A stretch of 64,000 nucleotides of DNA from NCBI GenBank assembly GCA_949299015.1, contig CASFYT010000004.1, forward strand, positions 1-64,000. Reading direction: 5' to 3'. Shown here piece by piece: positions 54,966-61,428 of this stretch (its first letter is position 1; each line of letters opens with the position of its first letter). The notes below the pieces were generated by a model. It did no database searches. It saw nothing but the letters and a program-made list of their open reading frames with translations, and was not told the DNA's origin. Source of the stretch: an uncultured Bacillota bacterium. GTDB taxonomy: Bacteria > Bacillota_I > Bacilli_A > RFN20 > CAG-288. The position numbers and the translations under genes are program-made.

Positions 54966-55408
54966 TCAGAGAACAGAAGAAAACGAAGGAAACGCAGTTG
55001 AAAACGACAGGACGTATCGAAAGCGCCCGCGTCCGGCACGTCGCCGAAGAGCTATCCTGGAACTATGGCACGGATGTCGTCGTCTACGACGTCCGGAGCC
55101 GGACGCCCTATGTCAGCTATTATGTCGTCTGCTCGGCCAGCAACGACCATCGCCTGCGTTCCTTAGTCACGACTGCCGACGAAGCCCTCTACGACAACTT
55201 CTTTGACTTGCACCACAAGGAAGGAAAGAACGGATCGACGTGGATTCTTCTCGACGCCAAGACCATCGTCGTCCAGCTTTTTACGAAGGAAATGCGCGAT
55301 CACGTTCAATTCGATGCCCTCTACGAGGATTGCCCCCATGAAGTCATCGTCGCCGAAGAGGAACCAAAGTATCCCAAGCGCCGAAAGGCGAACGGGAGGG
55401 CCGCATGA
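54956..55408 (+). CDS. rsfS: Ribosomal silencing factor RsfS
   Basis: RsfS (Iojap/YqeL) binds L14 and blocks subunit joining when nutrients are scarce. The 150-residue protein has VVVYDVRSRTPYVSYYVVCS, GSTWILLDAKTIVVQLFTKE and R.HVQFDALYED, matching the family pattern of a YFVI segment, a WILLD segment and a C-terminal LE.LW-like helix. Charged tails extend both ends. It overlaps yqeK by 10 bp. Confidence 0.92.
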   Translation: MPLIREQKKTKETQLKTTGRIESARVRHVAEELSWNYGTDVVVYDVRSRTPYVSYYVVCSASNDHRLRSLVTTADEALYDNFFDLHHKEGKNGSTWILLDAKTIVVQLFTKEMRDHVQFDALYEDCPHEVIVAEEEPKYPKRRKANGRAA

Positions 55409-56085
55409 AAAGCGTCCTGATGGTCGTCGCGACCGAAGAAGAGCTCCACGCGCTTCGTCGCGTCTGTCCACTCAAGTCGGAGGGCGTGGGCGCCAATTTT
55501 GTCTACCGCTGTCAGGAATCGAATTATCAGATCGATGTCATCCGAGGAGGCATTGGAAAGGCAGCGATGGCCTTCGCCCTTGGCGCGTGCTTTGCTCGCA
55601 AACATTACGACCTCGTGTTCAACATCGGGGTCGCCGGAACGGTTTCTCCTCGTCTTAAGGCGATGGACATCTTCTGCGCGACAAAGTCCTGCTACTACGA
55701 CGTCTCCCTTCCCGGACTGAAACGTGGACAGATGGACGGAATGCCCCTTTTCTTCGAATGCGATCCTCGAATCGTCGAAATCGCAAGAGAGTTGAATCCT
55801 GAGATTCGAACGGGAATCGTGATTACGGGCGATCAGTTCGTCACGAAGGACAATCTCCCTCCACACCTCGAGGATTTTGAAGATCCGCTTGCCATCGACA
55901 TGGAATCGGCATCGGTCGGTGAGTCGACCTATTTGACAGGAACCCCCTATGCGATTTTGCGCACGATCTCCGACGATGCGACGACGTCTCCGGACGAAGC
56001 CGAATATGAGAAAAATGTCGAGAAAGCAAGTAATCGTGCTGCGACAACGGCGCTGCAAATTATCGAAAAGTATTTTAGTATTTAA
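55405..56085 (+). CDS. mtnN: 5'-methylthioadenosine/S-adenosylhomocysteine nucleosidase
   Basis: MtnN (Pfs) cleaves methylthioadenosine and S-adenosylhomocysteine to adenine and a thioribose product. The 226-residue protein has MVVATEEELHAL at the N-terminus, VFNIGVAGTVSPRLKAMDI, ITGDQFV and AIDMESASV, followed by ILRTISDDA (catalytic Asp). It is the last gene of the yqeG operon. Its final codons run into the first TAGTA box of the A+T-rich island. Confidence 0.93.
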   Translation: MKSVLMVVATEEELHALRRVCPLKSEGVGANFVYRCQESNYQIDVIRGGIGKAAMAFALGACFARKHYDLVFNIGVAGTVSPRLKAMDIFCATKSCYYDVSLPGLKRGQMDGMPLFFECDPRIVEIARELNPEIRTGIVITGDQFVTKDNLPPHLEDFEDPLAIDMESASVGESTYLTGTPYAILRTISDDATTSPDEAEYEKNVEKASNRAATTALQIIEKYFSI

Positions 56086-56132
56086 TTAGTACTAGTGAAA
56101 TACTAAACCCAGAAATTTTGAGAATCCAAATT

Positions 56133-56164
56133 ATAGTATATATTCGGTACTGAATATATACTAT
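56133..56164. repeat. Perfect 13-bp inverted repeat with 6-bp centre
   Basis: ATAGTATATATTC (56133-56145) is exactly inverted at 56152-56164, with GGTACT between. TTTTTAT follows on the plus strand, so it could terminate the mtnN transcript, but the stem is almost all A/T. The 13-6-13 geometry also resembles a binding or recombination site. Confidence 0.85.
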
Positions 56165-56294
56165 TTTTATAAGAAAGTTGATTAGGGTCCTTAATCAATG
56201 AATGATAAGTCAAATTTATTATCAAAAATAGTAAACAAATGGTATTTATGAACGATAACCAAGAAATATGTGAAAAATCATCGCAATTTATTTT

Positions 56295-56322
56295 AATGCG
56301 GATAATGTTAATTATGTTAATA
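56295..56322 (+). other. dif: Candidate dif site (XerC/XerD recombination site)
   Basis: The left arm AATGCGGATAA, centre TGTTAA and right arm TTATGTTAATA match 8/11, 4/6 and 9/11 positions of the Escherichia coli dif site as I recall it, 21 of 28 in all, with the XerC arm on the left. Both inner half-sites (ATAA and TTATG) are intact. It sits in the middle of an A+T-rich island where gene orientation flips from mostly plus to entirely minus, as expected at a replication terminus. A XerD-like recombinase gene is 3.2 kb away. Confidence 0.7.
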
Positions 56323-56451
56323 GATTTTGGATTTGAATAGTCGATATATAGTAATAAAATTGAATTCATAAAAATAGTGATATATCAGTACTAGAGTAAT
56401 ACTAATAATTCATTAACTAATATTGCTGTGTTTTATAGTACTATATTTATA

Positions 56452-57231
56452 CTATTTTTCAATATTTGCAAAACCGTCTCTGCTCTTCAATCGCTTCTTC
56501 GCCAAATGTAACAAGAAGTCCATCACTAGGATGAGGATAAGGCAGATCAAGACATACGCCATCATTTCCCGGTAATCCAGATTCTGATAGGAGGTATTGA
56601 TGAGATTGCCTAATCCAAGGTCGTCCGTTCGATAGGTGAACGTCTCCGCCATGATTTCAATTTTCAGTCCCAATCCCAAAGCCTGTGTCCATCCCAATAG
56701 AACGTAGTCCATCGAGAGCGGAAGGATGATTCGGGTGATATTGCTTAAGTGATATTTTCCCTTCAACAGCAAGGACATCTCATATCTTTGATAGATGGTT
56801 CGAGCTCCGGAATAGGAGGCCTGGTACAGCATCGGAAACAGGACGAGACTCACCACCCAGATGGCTGTCTCAGGGACGAAGACAATCAAAAGCAGGATGA
56901 GGGCAATCGTCGGAAAGGACCTCAGGACCGTCATCAACGGGGTCAAGATCATCCCTAGCGATGAAAAATAGCCGGCCAACGTACCAAGGAGCATTCCTAA
57001 GGCGCCGCTGCCCAAAAGCGATGCCACGAGACGCAAAAGGGTATTTCCGAGCGCCAGGTAGGTCGTTTTCTCTCCAAGCTTTTCGACGAGCTGGGAGCAT
57101 GTCGAAAAGAATTCAGGCAAAAAGAGCTGAGATGTGGAAAATGCGACGATTTCCCATACGACAACAACCAAAAGGAGCCCAAGAAGGATCAGAAAGGACG
57201 GATGGAGGAAAAACTTCTTGAGCTTCTTCAT
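56452..57231 (-). CDS. ABC-transporter permease, SsuC/TauC-like
   Basis: The 259-residue protein has six TM segments and the binding-protein-dependent permease fold. The EAA-like loop reads YQASYSGARTIYQRYEMSLLL and ends near LPLSMDYVLLGWTQALGLG. It resembles permeases for sulphonates, nitrate, thiamine precursors or similar small substrates; the substrate is unknown. It lies 3 bp after the lipoprotein gene. No ATPase gene follows: the frame ends in the A+T-rich island. Confidence 0.85.
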   Translation of the reverse strand: MKKLKKFFLHPSFLILLGLLLVVVVWEIVAFSTSQLFLPEFFSTCSQLVEKLGEKTTYLALGNTLLRLVASLLGSGALGMLLGTLAGYFSSLGMILTPLMTVLRSFPTIALILLLIVFVPETAIWVVSLVLFPMLYQASYSGARTIYQRYEMSLLLKGKYHLSNITRIILPLSMDYVLLGWTQALGLGLKIEIMAETFTYRTDDLGLGNLINTSYQNLDYREMMAYVLICLILILVMDFLLHLAKKRLKSRDGFANIEK

Positions 57232-59512: not shown

Positions 59513-60391
59513 TCAATCTTCTCCTTCGCCCATCGCCTTGTCGTATCCCTCGCGCTTCATCTTCGAGGAGACCTTCGTGTAGATCATCGTCGTCTCCACC
59601 TGGCTGTGTCCAAGGAGTTCCTGGACTTGGCGAATCGGAGCCCCGTTTTCCAGCAGGGTCGTCGCGAAGCTATGCCGGAGCATGTGCGGATGGACGTCGC
59701 TGCCTAGTCCCGCCTTCTCCGCCGCCTTGCGGAGCTCGAGATAGAAGTATTGACGCGAAACCCGTCCCCGGTCCTCGTGAAGAAAGAGGTTCCTTTCCTT
59801 CGTCTTCAGTCCCTTCCTTCGGTCGAGATATTCGGAAAGATAGAATCGGCATTCCTGATTCATCGGAACGATCCTCTCCTTGTCGCCCTTTCCCCGAATC
59901 TTCAGGTATCCATCCGGGACGTTGACCTGACCGAGCTTCAGGTTGCACAGTTCGGAGACGCGAAGGCCGCAGGAATAGCAGACCTCCATCATGGTGAGGT
60001 TGAGGAGCCCCTTGAAGGTCTCGGCTTCCTGCGATTGAAACAGGAGACGGACTTCGCGGTCGGTCAGGACACGCGGGAGGCTCCGTCCCTTCTTGGGGAC
60101 CTCCATCTCTCCCAAGGTGACCCGAAGGACGTTCTCTCCCTTGAGGAAACGGTAGAATCCCTTCACGGCCATCGCCTTGCGCACCAGGCTTGTCTTGGAA
60201 TAGCCCTTAGAGGTCAGGAAGGCTAGATAGTCGTCATAATCGCTCAGGCCGAGTTCTTCGGCAGGCTTTTCGCCGATGAGGTCTTGGAATTGGCGCAGGT
60301 CGCCCTCATACGCCTCAACCGTCCTTCGGCTGTCCCCCTTTTCGGAAAGAAGGTAGGCGAAGAAGCGTTCCATCGCATCGCGCAGGGTCAT
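59513..60391 (-). CDS. xerD: Tyrosine recombinase XerD-like
   Basis: XerC/XerD resolve chromosome dimers at dif. The 292-residue protein has an N-terminal SAM-like core-binding domain (about 1-90) and the catalytic domain with R144 (CGLRVSEL), K168 (GKGDKER), H236 and R239 ([12 protein letters not shown]), H262 (LLGHSQV) and Y271 (MIYTKV). The size and adjacency to deoB favour XerD rather than XerC or a phage integrase. ATG 60391 overlaps dinB by four bases. A candidate substrate is the dif-like site at 56295. Confidence 0.9.
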
Positions 60392-61428
60392 GACGGATCC
60401 TTTCCCCGGTTGCCGACCTTGTCGACGCCGACACCGATCAGGCGAAGGCTTTCGCCATGGTAGCATTCCTCGAAGATGCGCATCGCCTCCGCAAAGATGG
60501 AGGCCGAACCCTCGACAGGAGAAGGGAGAGCCTTCCTCCTCGACCAGGTCCTGAATCGGTCGTCACGAAGCTTGACGACGACGACGGAGGCCGACTTCCG
60601 ATATTTCTCCAGCTCTGCGGCAACTTCTTCCGAGCAGATGCGGATCATGTCGCGGATCTCGTCGTAGTCGGTGATGTCCTCCGAAAAGGTCCGCTCGGCG
60701 GAACACGACTTGGGATCGAAGGCCTCGGGATGGACATGGTCGTCTCCGAAACCGTTGGCTTCCGACTGGTAATAGTCGAAGAGGTTGCCCAGAAGGCGAC
60801 GGACGTCCGGATTCTGCGTCCGTGCCAGGTCGCCGATCGTCTGGATGCCCAGGGCTTGGAGCCGTGGCGCGGTCTTCCGGCCGATGCCGTACATCTTGTC
60901 GATCGACAGAGGCCAGAGAAGAGATTCGATGTTCTCCCGATTCAGGAGGGTCAGTCCCATCGGCTTTCGCAGGTCGCTGGCCATCTTGGCGAGAAACCGG
61001 TTGGCGCCATGTCCGATCGAGCACTTGAGCCTTGTATGGCGGTAGAGCGAAAGCTGGAGGTCGAAGAGATAGCCATGGCGGTCTTCGCGGTCGATCTCCG
61101 CTGTCATGTCGATATAGCATTCATCGATGGAAGCCTGTTCGATCAAAGAAAAACGATTTCGTAGATATGAAAAGAATTTTTTAGACAAATAACGATAATA
61201 ATCATAGTGACCGTTGACGATGATCAAGTCCTTGCAAATTTCCTTGGCCTGACTCATGGGCATCCCGGACCGGACGCCGAACTTCCTCGCCTCATAGGAG
61301 CAGGTCGCGACGACTCCGCGGCGTCCGTCGTAGCCGACGGCCAGGGCCTTTTCGTTGAGGGTAGGATCGCGCAGGCACTCCGCCTGGGCGAAGAAGGCGT
61401 TCAGGTCGATGTGAACGATCTCTTTCAT
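60388..61428 (-). CDS. dinB: DNA polymerase IV (Y family)
   Basis: DinB is a translesion polymerase. The 346-residue protein has [27 protein letters not shown], the catalytic [27 protein letters not shown] and a helix-hairpin-helix ([17 protein letters not shown]) before the little-finger domain. There is no beta-clamp QL.LF box at the C-terminus that I can identify. It overlaps xerD and recN by four bases each, so recN-dinB-xerD form a tight repair and recombination operon. Confidence 0.95.

Follow-up and report, generated by a model that had tools for sequence, protein, structure and literature searches.

Phased TACTA repeats beside the chromosomal dif site of a bacterial order: a possible accessory site for XerCD

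The window analysed here, a stretch of 64,000 nucleotides, holds a 28-mer that is strongly supported by sequence as a genuine chromosomal dif site at the replication terminus, and the A+T-rich island surrounding it is filled with an array of TAGTA/TACTA repeats that the preliminary description of this DNA had missed. The rest of the order (RFN20) carries such repeats as direct units, mostly past the XerD arm, with distances to dif that step in whole helical turns. While there is nothing out of the ordinary about dif as such, which belongs to a known kind, the explanation of the array that our analysis comes to favour, if only slightly, is that of an accessory nucleoprotein site acting together with XerCD at dif.

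The dif site and the replication terminus

That the 28-mer is dif and marks the replication terminus had been proposed before, and the proposal is borne out, as the site is single-copy, conserved across the order and situated opposite dnaA at a switch of both skew and gene strand, in a genome encoding XerC-like and XerD-like recombinases and an FtsK with a gamma domain. It is the position, the conservation and the uniqueness of the site that identify it. No further copy with ≤3 mismatches is present in the window (expectation 0.00), nor was a second one found in the 1.14-Mb draft genome, which is 85% complete. The claimed resemblance to the Escherichia coli dif stands at 21 of 28 positions shared, with seven differences. 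Conservation in related genomes, which had been suggested as a check, was seen: of 147 relatives, 129 have a match to a dif-like pattern, as a rule a single one in each genome, the reversed pattern used as a control matching only seldom. From the consensus of 86 loci of the order, ACTTCG[CT]ATAA-N6-TTATGT[TA]AACT, the site of the window differs at arm positions 2, 4 and 7 and retains the inner half-sites. The XerD-like gene is indeed found near the site (Table 1), and the XerC-like one is located on contig C7. Three further integrase-type tyrosine recombinases of this small genome (G000; contigs C16, C6 and C4:103859-104278) probably represent mobile elements.

The position of the terminus was taken from relatives, the window's own genome being too fragmented: on complete or near-complete contigs, the distance from dnaA to dif amounts to 0.51 (G013), 0.485 (G079) and 0.49 (G121) of the chromosome. 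GC skew in 20-kb blocks falls at dif (+0.07 to -0.04) and rises at dnaA (-0.06 to +0.07) in G079, where the coding strand also flips at both loci, so that the skew of this relative is canonical and its switch coincides with dif within the 20-kb resolution. The cumulative skew of the window itself does not show the expected peak, reaching a minimum near 56 kb instead, because the skew of this genus follows the gene strand with reversed sign. Both in the window (1-64000) and in G013 the skew is weak and tracks the coding strand, plus-strand genes being C-rich. As for the gene-orientation switch described at the site, its right side is all minus-strand, as stated, and its left side mostly plus-strand, with the exception of a mixed stretch at 20-40 kb.

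The XerC arm had been considered proteobacteria-like and unusual for this kind of bacterium, which turned out not to be so, as ACTTCG[CT]ATAA is what this order normally has for the arm. A scan of the class also found it in families f15, f20, f24 and f25, alongside other families carrying the arm ACTTCCTATAA, and the version present in the window, AATGCGGATAA, diverges mildly from the consensus of the order. The idea of the arm being a sign of something odd was thus rejected, since the arm belongs natively to this order and is also met with in other parts of the class.

Repeats around dif in the window and across the order

The gene-free A+T-rich island noted earlier is confirmed, having 21.6% G+C over ~320 bp around dif in a genome of ~58% G+C. 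What it contains, between 56076 and 56454, are three 30-bp elements of the palindromic form TAGTA-N6-TAGTACTA-N6-TACTA (one perfect and two slightly changed), one three-quarter element and two half elements (Table 1). Six of the eight dyad matches in the whole genome fall inside the island, within 378 bp, and the other two are isolated; no copy of an array element with ≤1 mismatch occurs elsewhere in the 64-kb window, where 0.05-0.09 would be expected over its whole length. A genome-wide search for extra sites that might betray an autoregulated gene of a binding protein returned only isolated, chance-like matches. The array clusters at dif in 12 of the 13 genomes of the family that were searched (the window's own and eleven others), the thirteenth, G001, having no recognised dif in its assembly. 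It is also diagnostic, since in one of these genomes (G011) it was the cluster that led to dif, which the first dif pattern had overlooked.

Table 1. Coordinates of dif, the repeat elements and the adjoining genes in the window
Feature	Position	Strand	Remarks
Phosphorylase-superfamily (MTAN-like) gene	55405..56085	+	left neighbour of dif; syntenic in the family
Perfect 30-bp palindrome TAGTA-N6-TAGTACTA-N6-TACTA	56076..56105	.	overlaps last codons of the MTAN-like gene
A+T-rich gene-free island with dif and array	56080..56480	.	
30-bp palindromic element TAGTATATATTCGGTACTGAATATATACTA	56134..56163	.	
Half element TAGTA-N6-TGGTA	56229..56244	-	two 11-bp-spaced units
dif, 28-mer AATGCGGATAATGTTAATTATGTTAATA	56295..56322	+	XerC arm AATGCGGATAA, centre TGTTAA, XerD arm TTATGTTAATA; unique in genome, conserved in the order
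Half element TAGTC-N6-TAGTA	56338..56353	-	two 11-bp-spaced units
30-bp palindromic element TAGTGATATATCAGTACTAGAGTAATACTA	56375..56404	.	
Three-quarter element TAGTACTA-N6-TACTA	56436..56454	.	
ABC transporter permease gene	56452..57231	-	right neighbour of dif; syntenic in many relatives
XerD-like tyrosine recombinase gene	59513..60466	-	Pfam Phage_integrase, E=2.4e-45

Elsewhere in the order the repeats take a simpler form, two to four direct 11-bp repeats TACTA-N6-TACTA situated ~95-150 bp beyond the XerD arm. An exact repeat pair is present in 59 of the 69 non-array loci with enough flanking sequence, representing 25 genera, and 94 forward pairs were observed beyond the XerD arm where shuffles preserving dinucleotides lead one to expect ~0.1. 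The reverse orientation prevails on the other side of dif (35 versus 14), so that the polarity of the units is mirrored around it. The complete architecture, defined as the XerD arm followed by 105-135 bp and the repeats, was found in 37 of 55 genomes of the order as opposed to 1 of 340 elsewhere in the class (Fisher p=3e-37); a second, overlapping genome sample gave 39 matches within the order and one outside, and of 20 dif flanks taken from the class outside this order, none showed the repeats. Within the order the repeats occur in families f1, f3 and f5 and are missing from the single f8 flank that was examined in full. Being the more widely distributed, the one-sided direct repeats are presumably the ancestral form, from which the palindromic two-sided arrays of the window's genus would be derived. 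The direct repeats are often preceded by a single oriented DnaA-box-like sequence (TTATCCACA/TTTTCCACA, ~72-96 bp past the XerD arm, e.g., in loci L018, L067 and L102).

The repeats do not lie at just any distance from dif. Their positions relative to it fall at ~95, 102-106, 113-118, 123-127, 136 and 146-148 bp, and in a sample of one locus per genus (25 genera, which are related and not fully independent for these statistics) the distances step in whole helical turns, with R=0.80 at 10.5 bp (p ~1e-7). The same is seen for genomes with a single repeat pair only (R=0.78, p ~1e-6), and the ends of neighbouring genes, taken as a control, are without periodicity (R=0.02 and 0.27). Part of this phasing could stem from the gain or loss of 11-bp units. 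Across the order there is thus conserved non-coding DNA beside the core site at a fixed phase, which is what one would look for in an accessory site; this holds only weakly for the window's genus, where the phasing of the palindromes to dif gave a best R of 0.30-0.49 (uncorrected p 0.002-0.02, with the period fitted over 10.0-11.5 bp).

A candidate accessory complex and its rivals

XerC and XerD are predicted to resolve chromosome dimers on dif at the terminus, and the TAGTA/TACTA elements would be the sites of a putative sequence-specific protein whose 11-bp target units all lie on the same face of the helix, in direct repetition or in the form of overlapping TAGTA-N9-TACTA dyads, and whose binding is, for this reason, probably cooperative. 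The patch thus formed would hold a fixed helical phase to dif, usually past the XerD arm, and would, in view of this fixed phase, most likely touch or shape the XerCD-dif complex; it might promote or gate the synapsis of sister dif sites at division, as the cer/psi complexes do. In the window's genus the one-sided direct repeats would have grown into palindromic arrays on both sides of dif. That a new terminus-specific DNA-binding protein builds a phased complex at dif throughout the order, controlling either XerCD dimer resolution or the placement of the terminus, appears to us reasonably probable, and the accessory complex is preferred because a mere marker of the terminus needs no fixed helical phase.

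The core agrees with the chromosomal dif/XerCD(-FtsK) systems of E. coli and of B. subtilis (CodV/RipX) in the 28-bp length with 11-bp arms and a 6-bp centre, the single copy, the terminus position and the XerC-like, XerD-like and FtsK-gamma genes. The model dif sites, however, are described without flanking accessory sites, whereas a phased array is kept across an order here; the chromosomal dif sites of model bacteria are not known to need accessory sequences, which counts against the accessory reading. At cer (ColE1) and psi (pSC101) the accessory DNA adjoins the XerC arm. These plasmid sites resemble the present system in having some 150-200 bp of accessory DNA next to the core, but their accessory sequences are bound by PepA, ArgR or ArcA, whereas here 11-bp TACTA units stand in place of ArgR/PepA sites, and the present system is chromosomal, with its units on the XerD side or on both sides. 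For plasmid Xer sites, such accessory DNA is the subject of PMC2533119 and PMC5357621.

The main rival is a terminus anchor or fork trap, in which the array would serve as a small centromere of the terminus (a matS-like role) or as a fork barrier, its protein placing, tethering or stopping forks there without acting on XerCD directly, and which we regard as possible and yet somewhat unlikely. The array is restricted to the terminus, in the window's genus it is multi-copy and two-sided, and the mirrored polarity of the units would be expected of a fork trap or a directional loader just as well. Yet a helically phased distance to dif is needless for an independent anchor, and every copy lies within a few hundred bp of dif, with no spread over a terminus domain. 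The matS sites of enterobacteria are spread over ~800 kb and have another sequence; terminus-specific palindromic sites are what the two systems share, whereas the sites of the window's genome keep to their 378 bp, save for the two isolated matches. The RTP/Ter sites of B. subtilis are short, A+T-rich and bipartite, lie near the terminus and contain ACTAA-like words, and the present sites are likewise short, A+T-rich, terminal and in possession of such words, but the spacing of the units differs, the sites are clustered at dif, and RTP, the known Bacillus terminator protein, was found in none of 12 genomes in a search with a positive B. subtilis control.

It is improbable, in our estimation, that the repeats belong to the genes next to an ordinary dif, be it as operators, as terminators or through A+T-rich drift. 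In favour of this reading are the high A+T content of the islands and the overlap between the first element and the end of the MTAN-like gene; the dinucleotide-preserving shuffles, however, yield next to none of the observed pairs, and Rfam has no match for the element. The nadD/yqeK-like and rsfS-like genes (and MTAN) are found directly to the left of dif with opposing genes to the right, the right-hand gene varies among relatives (ABC permease, MazF-like, phosphopentomutase), and the element is kept when that gene changes and is therefore tied to dif and not to the gene. FapR operators have half-sites, TTAGTA..TACTAA, resembling the words of the array, and were set aside since the half-site spacing differs and the sites are restricted to dif.

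Hardly any more credit can be given to a DnaA-based unwinding module, i.e., a DnaA box and CTACTA repeats imitating the basal unwinding system of oriC, even though the box-like sequence TTWTNCACA is oriented on the XerD side in 43 of the 86 loci of the order (as opposed to two in reverse) and has CTACTA words behind it, oriented as at oriC and matching the DnaA-trio triplet (consensus 3'-GAT-5', PMC10201434). The pitch of 11 bp is not divisible by 3, the spacers break the trio rule, the gap from box to repeat exceeds in most loci the 16-bp limit used in PMC8287927, the location is the terminus, several boxes but none of these repeats were seen at oriC in 14 relatives, and the window's genus has the repeats, yet the window's island is without a box. 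Least credible of all is a relic of an Xer-dependent mobile element (an IMEX phage or a plasmid dimer-resolution site) integrated at dif. Such elements commonly target dif, and plasmid Xer sites do have accessory sequences, but the left-hand genes are of the same kind across genera, element genes are absent, a plasmid search gave no matches, and three viral-contig matches to a dif arm plus repeats are without dif and look like chance.

Significance and the adjoining genes

Chromosomal dif is usually regarded as a self-sufficient 28-bp site under FtsK control, and a limited search of the open-access literature brought up no account of phased accessory repeats beside dif on a chromosome, a novelty that is to be taken as provisional. 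How Bacillus translocases activate CodV/RipX recombination at dif is treated as an open question in a review (PMC5357621). Phased, polarised and likely protein-binding sites kept beside dif by an order of that broad group would speak for an accessory factor on the chromosome, and TACTA-N6-TACTA would provide a sequence handle for finding it. If true, this would be, in an order of small genomes, either a chromosomal counterpart of the complexes that assemble at plasmid Xer sites or a centromere of a new kind at the terminus.

Among the neighbouring genes, one encoding a MazF/PemK-like protein (Pfam PF02452, 31.5 bits in L074) adjoins the repeats in several genera of family f5, to the right of dif and within loci L064-L081 (e.g., L074 of G122, L080 and L081). 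No antitoxin gene was noticed beside it in these loci; the PF02452 match is only weak in two divergent copies (L072 and L073), and L064 has an unrelated small gene in its place. The MazF-like gene was considered as a general binder of the repeats and rejected, as it is not next to dif in most loci, the window included. Local G+C in family f1 spans from <30% to ~58% (L012-L016 and other f1 loci versus L018-L022), and the dif island remains A+T-rich in most members of that family despite this range.
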